NCBI GenBank assembly: GCA_030549855.1
Contig: JAUQQP010000004.1
Span: 62,001-126,000, forward strand
DNA length: 64,000 nt
Direction: 5' to 3'
DNA from: Cyanobacteriota bacterium SRBZ.bins.94.201705
GTDB taxonomy: Bacteria > Cyanobacteriota > Cyanobacteriia > Cyanobacteriales > Cyanobacteriaceae
Shown here: one piece after another, positions 38,720-42,082 of the stretch
Layout of the letters: each line of letters begins with the position of its first letter
How positions within the stretch are numbered: position 1 is the first letter of the stretch
The notes under the pieces: generated by a model
Seen by the model: only the letters and a program-made list of their open reading frames with translations
Databases searched by the model: none
Told to the model about the DNA's origin: nothing
Program-made: the position numbers and the translations under genes

Positions 38720-39316
38720 ATTTACACACCACCTTTGGCAAGACTAATCGAACAATTACAAAAATTACCAGGCATAGGCCCTAAAAATGCCCAAAGACTG
38801 GCATTGCATATCATCAAACGTCCAGAAAAAGAGGTAGAAAATCTGGCAGAAGCTATCCTCAATGCTAAACGCAAAATCGGCTTCTGTCAACGCTGTTTTC
38901 ATCTTACCTCCGATACTATTTGTGAAATTTGTCGTAATCCGCACAGAGATCAGACCACCATTTGTGTGGTGGCAGACTCCAAAGATGTTATAGCCATAGA
39001 AAAGACCAGAGAGTACCAGGGGTTGTATCATGTATTAGGTGGGGTAATTTCCCCTATGGATGGTATAGGCCCAGAACAACTACATATAAAACAACTAATA
39101 CAACGAGTAAACCAGGAGAAAACCGCCGAGGTAATTTTAGCCATCAACCCCACTGTAGAGGGGGAAACCACTACTCTTTACATTGCCAAACTCCTCAAAC
39201 CCTTTACCAAGGTTACTAGGATTGCCTTTGGTTTACCCGTGGGTGGGGATTTGGAATATGCAGATGAAATCACCCTCGCCAAAGCCTTGGAAGGCAGAAG
39301 GGTTGTTGAAGACTAA
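38720..39316 (+). CDS. recR: Recombination protein RecR, probable ATT start codon
   Basis: Clamp-like protein of RecFOR repair, 198 residues with the ATT at 38720 as start. HhH motif [23 protein letters not shown], zinc finger [21 protein letters not shown], Toprim domain [28 protein letters not shown] and the C-terminal [15 protein letters not shown] are all present. Homologues as I recall them begin with a short YTxPLAR segment, and the upstream bases encode YTPPLAR only after an ATT codon. No ATG, GTG or TTG exists between the in-frame TAA at 38702 and the TTG at 38735. GGGAG lies seven bases before the ATT but 22 before the TTG. Confidence 0.9.
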
Positions 39317-39336
39317 TCCCCCAGTGAAGACAATCC

Positions 39337-40260
39337 CTATTCCCGTTTTTGATAGTCTAATATTGCCTGGATAAATTCTTCTTTTCTTTTCATTCTCGAA
39401 CACTCCTTTATTTTCAACTGTTTTGCCAAGTTTTTCAACTCAGCTACTCTCTTTTTCTCTAAACTTTCTCTTGTAAATATTTCCCCTATAAATCCTTCTT
39501 GTTTTTCCGGTTGTGTGGGTAAAACTGTGGCTGGTTGTTGTGGAATTTGTGTGCCTACCAATTGAATCCTGATTTCCCCTCTTATGTCTGATAGTTTCTG
39601 AGTAAAGGTAGACAATTCGCCTAAATGCTGTTGAAGGCTTGCCAATTGCCTCCTTATTTCGGAAATTTCTTGATTCAAACCTTTTAATTCTGACATAAAT
39701 ATCTGGGACAAGGAGGAGACAATATTTTTATTACTAGCTGCTATTTGCTGGGTAACTTCAGTTACGATTGCCCTTTTAAAATGCTCCAAATCTTCTGAAA
39801 AGCTAGGAGGGTAATTCTTAACTTCCCTTTCTTCTTCATTAGCCTTCTTTCCCCCTTCTTCTAAGTTAGTTTTTCTAGAAAGAATACCTGTGTCTTTTCT
39901 AGCTGTTGGGGGTAGGGAAAGCAGTTGTAAAAACTCCTGTTTTACTGCGGCTGCTTGTTGGTCATCTAAATCGAAAACCCAAGCCCAAAGTCTTTCTATG
40001 TCTAGTTTTTGAGCCACAAATGCTATATCTTCTCCATACACTATTTCATAATCCTTGTCTTGGCCATACTTGTCAGTGCGTCGTAAAATTAGAGGCAGCA
40101 GGTTGCTATTGTGTTGTTTCAAACTTTCCTCTAAAATTTTTCTCCTTTCTTCGGTTAAATCCACCCTATCTGGTATGACAATCTGACAGGTGTATACCTC
40201 CCCATGATTTAGGGGTTTAATGGCCAATATTCTTCTGATTTTTGCCTCCCTCTCATCCAT
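39337..40260 (-). CDS. ParB/sulfiredoxin-like protein with coiled coil and SAP/Rho-N-like tail
   Basis: 307 residues encoded two bases downstream of the ParA-like gene. Residues 10-115 resemble a ParB N-terminal (Srx-type) domain: LAIKPLNHGEVYTCQIVIP, LPLILRRTDKYGQDKDYEIVYGEDIAFVAQKL match the ParB pattern of a promoter region followed by YEIVxGExRxxAAK, though the canonical GERRWRA is altered to GEDIAFVA. A central spacer is polar, then a coiled coil (FMSELKGLNQEISEIRRQL). Residues 265-305 (LEKKRVAELKNLAKQLKIKECSRMKRKEEFIQAI) look like a SAP or Rho N-terminal DNA/RNA-binding fold. No ParB helix-turn-helix is visible. Probably the DNA-binding partner of the ParA. Confidence 0.75.
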   Translation of the reverse strand: MDEREAKIRRILAIKPLNHGEVYTCQIVIPDRVDLTEERRKILEESLKQHNSNLLPLILRRTDKYGQDKDYEIVYGEDIAFVAQKLDIERLWAWVFDLDDQQAAAVKQEFLQLLSLPPTARKDTGILSRKTNLEEGGKKANEEEREVKNYPPSFSEDLEHFKRAIVTEVTQQIAASNKNIVSSLSQIFMSELKGLNQEISEIRRQLASLQQHLGELSTFTQKLSDIRGEIRIQLVGTQIPQQPATVLPTQPEKQEGFIGEIFTRESLEKKRVAELKNLAKQLKIKECSRMKRKEEFIQAILDYQKRE

Positions 40261-40262
40261 AA

Positions 40263-41702
40263 TTACCTCTTAACACCCCGTAAAATTTGTAGTAAATGTT
40301 TTGCCAAAGCCAAGTAACATTCTCTGGCGTCTTCAAGGGAATTTTGTTCCCCCTGGATGGGTTGGTAGTCAAAAATAGGACATCCTTTTTCGGCAGAAAG
40401 AGAAACCACATTTAGCCTGGGAATCCAAGTATATTCGGGGAATAACAGGTTATTAGAATCCTCTTCTTCACACCTTTCTAACATTTCCAGAAGTCTATTT
40501 TTCATGTTAGTATTGAAGGTGGAAGAACGTTTATCATACATGCTAATAGCAACCCCCAAAAAAACTAAATCATCACCCCTAAAACTTTGTACCTCCTTGA
40601 GTCTCTTGATAACATATTCAATAGCCCTAATAGGATAAGGAGAAAGCTGGGTGGGAATCAAAACCCCATCAGCCGCCATAAGGGCAATACTGTTGACTTT
40701 GCCAAAGGACGGCGGGGCATCTATGAAAATAAAATCGTAGTCGTGGTTGTTTCCTATTTTTCTCTGTAGCACTCTATCAATATCAAGTGTTCTAATTAAA
40801 TCAGGCTCCTTATCACTGAGACGAATATGAGAAGGCACCAAGTCTAAACGGGTATTGGGCCATTCTTTTCTGATGACTACCTGTGAGAGGGTGACTTTGG
40901 GATTGAGCAGAAGGTCAGTAACATCCTTGTATCCTTTTTCCTCTACATCCTGGAGGGGATCCAATCCTAAACCCATAGTGAGATTGGCTTGGGCATCAAT
41001 GTCAATAAGCAACACCCGGTAGCCGAGTCTATTTAAGGCTGCCCCTAAATTGATGGTGAGAGTAGTTTTCCCCACACCTCCCTTGTTGTTAAACACTGTA
41101 ATAATCATGGACTTCTTTCCTCTCTCGTTTTCTGTGACAACAGGAGACTGCTGGCGCAATAGAGATGAAATATCCCGCCCCACAACCTTAGAGATGGCCT
41201 GTGTTAGCCCGACAAAATTTAGTCGCCGTTGGGCAAGGGCATTAATAGTCTTTATAGCAGACTTCTTCCACAAAAGGGTCTTGAATCTGTCAAAGTAAGA
41301 CGGTTGTAATAATTCAGTCTGGGAACATTCTAAAATGGGAACAATATTGCCCTCATGGTTAAAAAAAATTTGGAAATCATAGCCGTTGGTGAGTAAGCCA
41401 AAAAGTGCCCCACTAGTTTTTAGATATTGCCGTAACTGCCAGCGATGTTTACTGATTCTGCCATTGGCGGCCTTTACCTCTATAATCAGGTAGGGGGGAT
41501 AGGTACCAAGGGCACTTTTGGGGTGGACATAAAAATCCGGACGACTAGATTTTACTTTTGGCTGTTGTTGCCAGTCCTGTTCATTGTAACCCAAAATTTC
41601 CTGCAACAGGGGAATTACTAGGTTTTCTTCCACCTCCAACTCCCTACTGTTGCGCCGAAGGCTACGGAAACATCTTTCTAAAATCCTTCTATCCCTCGAC
41701 AT
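40263..41702 (-). CDS. ParA-family ATPase with N-terminal PD-(D/E)XK (HsdR-N-like) nuclease domain
   Basis: 479 residues with a clear two-part architecture. Residues 20-150 are an HsdR N-terminal-type domain: Glu25 in ELEVEENLVIPLLQEILGY, Asp56 (RPDFYV), Glu75-Val-Lys77 (YLIIEVKAANG) and Gln89/Tyr93 (QLRQY) match the E-PD-(D/E)XK-QxxxY pattern of type I restriction R subunits and RecB-like nucleases. Residues 198-475 are a ParA/MinD ATPase: deviant Walker A KGGVGKTT at 207-214, LIDIDAQANLTMGLG and the later DFIFIDAPPSFGKVNSIAL. Such fusions are unusual. The ParB-like gene follows two bases after it, so they form an operon. ATG start. It could position a nuclease on DNA, act in plasmid/phage defence, or be a partition system with a dead nuclease fold. 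Confidence 0.82.
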   Translation of the reverse strand: MSRDRRILERCFRSLRRNSRELEVEENLVIPLLQEILGYNEQDWQQQPKVKSSRPDFYVHPKSALGTYPPYLIIEVKAANGRISKHRWQLRQYLKTSGALFGLLTNGYDFQIFFNHEGNIVPILECSQTELLQPSYFDRFKTLLWKKSAIKTINALAQRRLNFVGLTQAISKVVGRDISSLLRQQSPVVTENERGKKSMIITVFNNKGGVGKTTLTINLGAALNRLGYRVLLIDIDAQANLTMGLGLDPLQDVEEKGYKDVTDLLLNPKVTLSQVVIRKEWPNTRLDLVPSHIRLSDKEPDLIRTLDIDRVLQRKIGNNHDYDFIFIDAPPSFGKVNSIALMAADGVLIPTQLSPYPIRAIEYVIKRLKEVQSFRGDDLVFLGVAISMYDKRSSTFNTNMKNRLLEMLERCEEEDSNNLLFPEYTWIPRLNVVSLSAEKGCPIFDYQPIQGEQNSLEDARECYLALAKHLLQILRGVKR

Positions 41703-41799
41703 AGATACAAAACACTCTACCCCGAGACTACTATAATTCTCTCGTACTTCCTCCCCAATTACAAGGCTCTCGGTTTAGTTATTTTTTTTTGTCAACCCC

Positions 41800-41840
41800 T
41801 TGTTAAAAATCTTAACTTATTGTTATAATTCTTAACATAG
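41800..41840 (+). promoter_or_regulatory. Promoter of hli overlapped by a 20-bp tandem repeat
   Basis: Two 20-bp copies run from 41801 to 41840: TGTTAAAAATCTTAACTTAT and TGTTATAATTCTTAACATAG, identical at 16 of 20 positions. Each contains a GTTA...TTAAC dyad. A -35 TTGTTA at 41800-41805 and -10 TATAAT at 41824-41829 are 18 bases apart, so the repeats cover both. A regulator could block or assist polymerase here. The hli ATG is at 41870. Confidence 0.6.
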
Positions 41841-41869
41841 AAGGAATCATAGAGCAAATAAAAGCAATC

Positions 41870-42082
41870 ATGAATAGGAATAGTTACGTAACCGAGGACA
41901 GAGGCCGTTTGAACAATTATGCCATCGAGCCTAAGATGTATGTAGATTCCACCCAGCAGTTTGGCTTTAACAAGTATGCCGAATTGTTAAATGGCCGTTT
42001 AGCGATGATTGGCTTTGTCTCCCTGATTGGCTTTGAGTTAATCACCAAACAGGGGTTAATTAGCTGGTTTGCCCATCTATAG
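41870..42082 (+). CDS. High-light-inducible protein (Hli/Scp)
   Basis: 70-residue one-helix LHC-like protein that binds chlorophyll and carotenoid and protects photosystem assembly under stress. The hallmark ELLNGRLAMIGFVSLIGFE (ExxNGRxAMIGF) lies at residues 39-57. The N-terminal 35 residues are polar with a tyrosine-rich part, typical of HliA/C-type proteins. ATG start; no good ribosome site. Promoter with a 20-bp tandem repeat upstream and a strong hairpin downstream. HliD/HliC assignment not possible by eye. Confidence 0.95.
   Translation: MNRNSYVTEDRGRLNNYAIEPKMYVDSTQQFGFNKYAELLNGRLAMIGFVSLIGFELITKQGLISWFAHL

Follow-up and report, generated by a model that had tools for sequence, protein, structure and literature searches.

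A nuclease-ParA fusion with a ParB-like partner forms a recurrent two-gene system in cyanobacteria

Among described systems, ParABS (Soj/Spo0J and the ParA/ParB pairs of plasmids) resembles the gene pair analysed here in having a Soj-like ParA half, a partner with a ParB_N/Srx domain and adjacent genes. Unlike ParABS, the first protein of the pair (P1) has a nuclease domain ahead of ParA, partners of the type of the second protein (P2) lack the helix-turn-helix and the CTP motif of ParB and end in Rho_N/SAP, HhH or unnamed tails, and no parS-like site was found near the operon (39300-41900). The nuclease domain of P1 shares its profile family (PF13588/PF04313) and catalytic residues with the N-terminal nuclease of type I restriction HsdR, whereas an SF2 translocase is absent from P1 and P2 according to Pfam, and the nuclease is fused to a ParA ATPase. 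PadC is a ParB-like adaptor of Myxococcus, and we know of no nuclease partner of PadC. It is similar to P2 in carrying a ParB/Srx domain apart from a full ParB (6ryk; Foldseek E 1.5e-3). McdAB, which positions carboxysomes in cyanobacteria, likewise combines a ParA-family ATPase with an adjacent partner; compared with McdAB (PMC6328274), the pair differs in that P1 has both K207 and K212 and P2 is ParB_N-like. No nuclease-ParA fusion of this kind was found described in the open-licence PMC literature, as covered by titles, the beginnings of abstracts and best matches.

The window, a stretch of 64,000 nucleotides from a contig of Cyanobacteriota bacterium SRBZ.bins.94.201705, carries the pair between two flanking open reading frames (Table 1). 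P2 lies downstream of P1 on the same strand with a gap of 2 bp, just as the first-pass annotation had described it.

Table 1. Positions in the window of the two genes, their parts and the flanking ORFs
Feature	Position	Strand	Details
P1, fusion of PD-(D/E)XK nuclease domain and ParA ATPase	40263..41702	-	479 aa; ORF list of the window, profiles, AlphaFold2 model
HsdR_N-type PD-(D/E)XK domain, P1 residues 1-160	41223..41702	-	HSDR_N_2 above cutoff; AlphaFold2
Soj/ParA-type deviant Walker ATPase, P1 residues 197-479	40263..41114	-	K207, K212, D236, D328; AAA_31
Catalytic stretch D56-K77 of P1	41472..41537	-	D56 41535-41537, E75 41478-41480, K77 41472-41474
E25 of P1	41628-41630	-	88/92 A/B proteins
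P2, ParB-like partner	39337..40260	-	307 aa; ORF list of the window; AlphaFold2 pLDDT 80.8
N-terminal helix (low confidence) and ParB_N/Srx domain, P2 residues 1-118	39907..40260	-	Profiles, AlphaFold2, Foldseek
Single long helix, probably coiled coil, P2 residues 153-236	39553..39804	-	AlphaFold2 model
Rho_N/SAP-type three-helix tail, P2 residues 264-306	39343..39471	-	Rho_N; pLDDT above 90
Flanking ORF, putative recR	38735-39316		ORF list of the window
Flanking ORF, putative hli	41870-42082		ORF list of the window

P1 is an HsdR_N-type PD-(D/E)XK domain joined to a complete Soj-like ParA ATPase, and the fusion proposed in the first-pass annotation was thereby borne out. The Pfam profile HSDR_N_2 matched residues 32-114 with 28.9 bits (curated cutoff 25) and was found at E ≤ 0.01 in all 22 N-domains of alignment A1, P1 included; AAA_31 matched residues 200-373 with 149 bits. 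The AlphaFold2 model of P1 (35 sequences; pLDDT 90.1) consisted of an alpha-beta N-domain, with pLDDT of 79-98 per 10-residue block, a linker of low confidence at residues 185-195, and a Soj-like ParA domain. Strands were modelled in the N-domain at residues 57-59, 72-76, 101-105, 109-116 and 119-127 and helices at 21-36 and 83-97, with D56 just ahead of the first of these strands and E75 within the second, and the E, D, E-x-K active site was located in the expected places of the PD-(D/E)XK fold in both the alignments and the model. The ParA part, which carries the Walker A sequence KGGVGKT, aligned with Soj from the Soj-DNA-Spo0J structure (8jmj_A; VIA) with a Z of 33.9 and an rmsd of 1.9 over 254 residues. 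In a fold search with the whole model, the matches were all ParA chains and the N-domain fold was not reached, and searching the PDB sequences with a profile was uninformative for the nuclease domain. In the ParA of four D-type loci (L266, L267, L268 and L269), the Walker A sequence is KGGVAKT instead of KGGVGKT.

The relatives of P1 and P2 were sorted into four subfamilies (A-D) of one two-gene system, where A is the type of the window, with a ParA part close to that of P1. Cyanobacterial genome samples of 386, 373 and 373 were used. The P1 N-domain matched 68 of 386 genomes, namely 16 with subfamily A, 47 with subfamily B (counts that include split, truncated or contig-edge frames, e.g. G073, G132, G293, G307, G027, G093) and five others, two of which (G220, G381) were counted as C and three were without ParA. 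Type C, found via plasmid matches, was matched in 46 of 373 genomes and counted in 42, as four with frames of another size were dropped (G062, G100, G162, G163); its fusion was read in 37 loci of 36 genomes, and in the remaining six genomes the locus was broken, lay at a contig edge or was not read again. Type D was matched in eight of 373 genomes and counted in six, of which two are in broken frames (G096, G297); the C loci G218 and G220 were left out. Together, A-D occur in 82 cyanobacterial genomes, and 28 of these have two or more types. The neighbourhood survey suggested in the first-pass annotation revealed a recurrent pair with its catalytic residues intact. With expectations that take the total as 373 and ignore genome size and kinship, A was found with C in nine genomes (1.8 expected), B with C in 15 (5.3 expected), and A with B in none (2.0 expected, p 0.24); despite the last count, an A pair and a B-type pair, the latter lacking HsdR_N, are neighbours in G132. 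The N-domain profiles of A matched those of B at 99.7% (E 1.6e-25) and those of C at 98.4% (E 4.5e-15), and the partner profiles of A and C matched at 97.5% (E 5e-12). In the tree, the ParA parts of A and B formed separate groups on long branches, which is compatible with HsdR_N and ParA having been joined either once or several times. The coverage of other phyla was limited to plasmid, phage and viral collections and to one pattern scan built on subfamily A, which gave 39 loci, 38 of them cyanobacterial and one from a Streptococcus without ParA.

Conservation was assessed in 92 A and B proteins, comprising full-length fusions only, with identical proteins taken once, picked by their match to the P1 N-domain. 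D56, E75 and K77 were each present in 92 of 92 and E25 in 88 of 92, all at the places first predicted, and the Walker residues K207, K212, D236 and D328 were likewise each present in 92 of 92, in keeping with the complete ParA ATPase originally noticed. The motif Gln89-x3-Tyr93, also read as part of the nuclease signature, held only for its second half: Tyr93 was Y in 91 of the 92 proteins, whereas Gln89 was Q in 44 and R or K in 47, and the Gln89 part of the motif is therefore subfamily-specific. In a C/D alignment of 44 rows, in which P1 is included and one plasmid protein appears twice, the equivalents of these E, D, E and K residues were found in 43, 42, 44 and 43 rows, respectively. A chance motif was ruled out by the profile match and the invariance of D, E and K, and the PD-(D/E)XK site of P1 is apparently intact. 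In comparison with the same-genus orthologue (77% identical), dN/dS in P1 was lowest in ParA (0.14), intermediate in the nuclease domain (0.26) and highest in the linker (0.51); in P2, the Srx domain (0.19) and the tail (0.17, with a saturated dS near 2) were both below the middle (0.48). The pair is under purifying selection. A PD-(D/E)XK fold that only binds DNA and does not cut it is very unlikely, given that the catalytic residues remain invariant even in domains only 21% identical to that of P1, and that D, E and K together are not expected as a requirement of binding alone; such a role would nevertheless agree with the fact that ParA positioning needs no nuclease and that some B-type ParAs of about 290 aa are without the domain (e.g. 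G134, G025, G254).

The reading of P2 as a ParB/Srx domain followed by a long helix and a SAP/Rho_N tail was confirmed, with the qualification that in the window protein ParB_N scored 20.2 bits, under its Pfam cutoff of 26.3. The ParB_N assignment is supported by matches at E ≤ 0.01 in 79 of 104 partners, P2 included, and by a Foldseek search with the AlphaFold2 model of P2, in which Noc/ParB structures came top (best E 1.1e-6). The long helix spans 84 residues in this model, and Rho_N matched with 25.2 bits, barely over its cutoff of 24.9. As first observed, the usual ParB helix-turn-helix is missing from P2, according to both Pfam profiles and the model, and HTH_ParB occurs in at most one of the 104 partners, being absent from the best 25 of 62 Pfam families ranked by members. 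GERRxRA is the CTP-binding motif of ParB; it was present in the Noc alignment and in none of the 104 partners. Pfam gave the names Rho_N, HHH_3 and SAP to 28, 9 and 6 of the partner tails, and single-linkage clustering of the last 85 residues gave clusters of 41, 33, 23, 3, 2, 1 and 1. The three large clusters each mix subfamilies (37 B and 4 A; 30 A and 3 B; 14 A and 9 B), and the tails thus cross subfamilies and are exchangeable. Two further observations concern the partners. Some A- and B-type partners have in common a domain of about 70 residues at the C terminus (L079:7518-8336 and 22 others), and the L079 partner had no Pfam match at E ≤ 0.01. Long A-type ParB-like partners of about 362 aa do not directly follow a fusion (L092:11272-12363, L093:9635-10720, L150:8304-9389), and some of them are near a complete pair.

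Of 91 distinct full-length A/B fusions, 89 have a partner at one of the next two ORFs, the exceptions being L086, where the partner is about 1 Mb off in the same genome, and L142, which was counted as C; in C and D, the partner was the next ORF in 35 of 41 fusions, with none at L227, L257 and L260-L263. This pairing of a ParA gene with a ParB_N gene would also be expected of a partition or stability module for replicon maintenance, in which the nuclease domain replaces the N-terminal helix-turn-helix of type Ia ParA and which would act in partition, multimer handling or post-segregational killing. The first-pass annotation placed the pair away from any plasmid gene, which is correct for the window locus and does not extend to its relatives, as named cyanobacterial plasmids carry C or D types in seven cases: five were matched by the D query (two of Pseudanabaena, two of Leptolyngbya boryana and one of Nostoc UHCC 0870), and the other two also belong to Nostoc UHCC 0870. 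In the full-length plasmid search, the relatives were among the best 12 of 4170 matching records, and more may exist; a match on pANACY.02 was rejected as a relative, as it is an ordinary ParA/ParB pair. Different types also reside on different replicons of one strain, since G056, which matches Nostoc UHCC 0870, has B on a 6.4-Mb contig, C on plasmids 4 and 9, and D on plasmid 10. The fusion is the only ParA-type gene annotated on ABRG53g (12.6 kb) and the only annotated par-type gene in the stretch 28000-77793 of pLBA, and because of these two cases we retain the maintenance explanation as a rival. However, on the three Nostoc UHCC 0870 plasmids the fusion is accompanied by ordinary ParA/ParB or ParM genes (50 kb were read of the plasmid of 55 kb), which weakens the interpretation as a normal plasmid partition locus, and contigs above 2 Mb hold at least 7 A, 18 B and 17 C loci. 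Also unfavourable to maintenance, repeats of 12 nt or longer are absent from 41600-41900 and only short repeats occur across 39300-41870; the AATTCTTAACTT-like copies at 41807 and 41827 are in the part of the promoter region that faces the other gene, and the P1 side is not conserved in the same-genus orthologue. Considering also the absence of the CTP motif from the partners, a role in replicon maintenance appears rather unlikely.

In phage collections, the N-domain query gave six records, none annotated as ParA, the P2 query gave no match, and full-length P1 gave 86 records, of which the best 12 cover the ParA part only. No relative was found in viral contigs by scans that reach close relatives only.

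On chromosomes, the pair recurs in particular places and behaves as an accessory element, with patchy spread and decayed copies. A stand-alone ParA of one clade is located within 4 kb in 31 of 101 loci (12 A and 19 B; three contigs appear twice among the 101), which suggests stable chromosomal residence. It is on the opposite strand in 29 of 30 measured loci, with L113, a split fusion, left out. At E ≤ 1e-60, this ParA was detected in 46 genomes out of 146, of which 45 belong to the order of the window. The stand-alone ParA at L116:5439-6320 has 294 aa, and its clade is widespread in the order of the window and often beside the pair. The ileS and threonine synthase families are each near the pair in 14 loci. 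These recurrent places, the conserved ParA and the purifying selection would agree with chromosome handling, in which a nuclease positioned on the nucleoid would serve repair or the disentangling of DNA in polyploid cyanobacteria. We consider this improbable, as A and B are present in only 16 and 47 of 386 genomes and, among 15 genomes of the family of the window, type A is found in only two (G000, G006), both of the genus of the window, and decayed copies exist. Elsewhere in the family, B occurs in G012 and C in G007 and G009; of the 15 genomes, 13 yielded a RecR, and in the 11 of these that fall outside the genus, nothing matching P1, P2 or hli lies within 1.5 kb of recR.

Decay is visible in the genome of the window itself. 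One decayed locus (L003; G000:C23:7212-10838), whose placement in B rests on a long branch, has a 288-aa ParA without a nuclease domain adjoining a partner broken over two frames. At L147:12187-12351 (G000:C19), a fragment of an A-type ParA is 82% identical to P1 residues 344-398 and lies mostly inside a 60-aa ORF, with no other convincing part of P1 in the 14-kb stretch. In G132 (L084:4079-10985), an A-type pair with a split P1 is under 2 kb from a B-type ParA that is preceded, in place of HsdR_N, by an SF1 helicase in one frame with one stop; the N-terminal part of the helicase showed weak, below-cutoff matches to the nuclease families DUF559 and MTES_1575. A DUF2779 gene is located upstream at L084. 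No second helicase-ParA fusion was found in 291 genomes in which the best five candidates per genome were scored.

The first-pass annotation suggested that the operon serves defence, anti-plasmid action or chromosome handling, a proposal that gained no support from the PADLOC comparison of flanking genes. With PADLOC 2.0, no single system matched both proteins; the ParA region of P1 matched PDC-M28B (best E 4.8e-6) and weaker models, and P2 matched LeoBC (E 0.028). PADLOC matches were no more frequent in the flanks of 20 loci than in 20 control stretches (46 families/112 proteins vs 87/120). This comparison was uninformative. Kinase models raised the control figure, and 7 of the 119 test proteins, for the most part ParA or partner genes, had been removed before scanning. 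A methylase or other self-mark was not noticed beside the pair in the window, and HsdM and HsdS were absent among the annotated neighbour families, as judged from representatives of recurrent neighbours only.

Considering all the above results, we propose that P1 and P2 may form a two-component, nucleoid-roaming nuclease that is gated by ParA dimerisation and a ParB-like adaptor and is most likely used in replicon conflict, with a probability of roughly 0.4. In this model, which takes nucleoid binding, dimer gating and the adaptor role from ParA/ParB biology, ATP would cause the ParA part of P1 to dimerise and to bind the nucleoid without sequence preference, bringing two PD-(D/E)XK domains together. 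P2 would contact the ParA part through its ParB_N domain and N-terminal helix, a contact modelled on the published work on ParB N-terminal peptides (PMC12462528), and would read DNA through its exchangeable Rho_N/SAP (or HhH) tail. By resetting the ATPase, this contact may set where and when the nuclease is allowed to cut. The use might then be conflict between replicons, in which plasmids, phage or other DNA in the cell would be cut or blocked; arguments for such a use are the patchy occurrence, the turnover, the exchangeability of parts and the presence of par genes on the same plasmids. Several findings weaken this reading: defence genes are not enriched, the same chromosomal places recur, on some plasmids no ParA other than the fusion was seen, and some B-type ParAs have no nuclease domain. 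It is conceivable, if doubtful, that the pair represents a distinct class of conflict system, with a ParA-dimer-switched nuclease, a CTP-independent ParB-like adaptor with exchangeable tails and an exchangeable effector. In such a class, the adaptor tails would supply the target, and the effector would be HsdR_N or, at one locus, a helicase with a DUF559-like match.

If P1 cuts DNA, the best-studied bacterial DNA-positioning machine and a DNA-destroying enzyme would be combined in one protein. The fusion is common in cyanobacteria and could bear on the barriers to plasmid transfer there.
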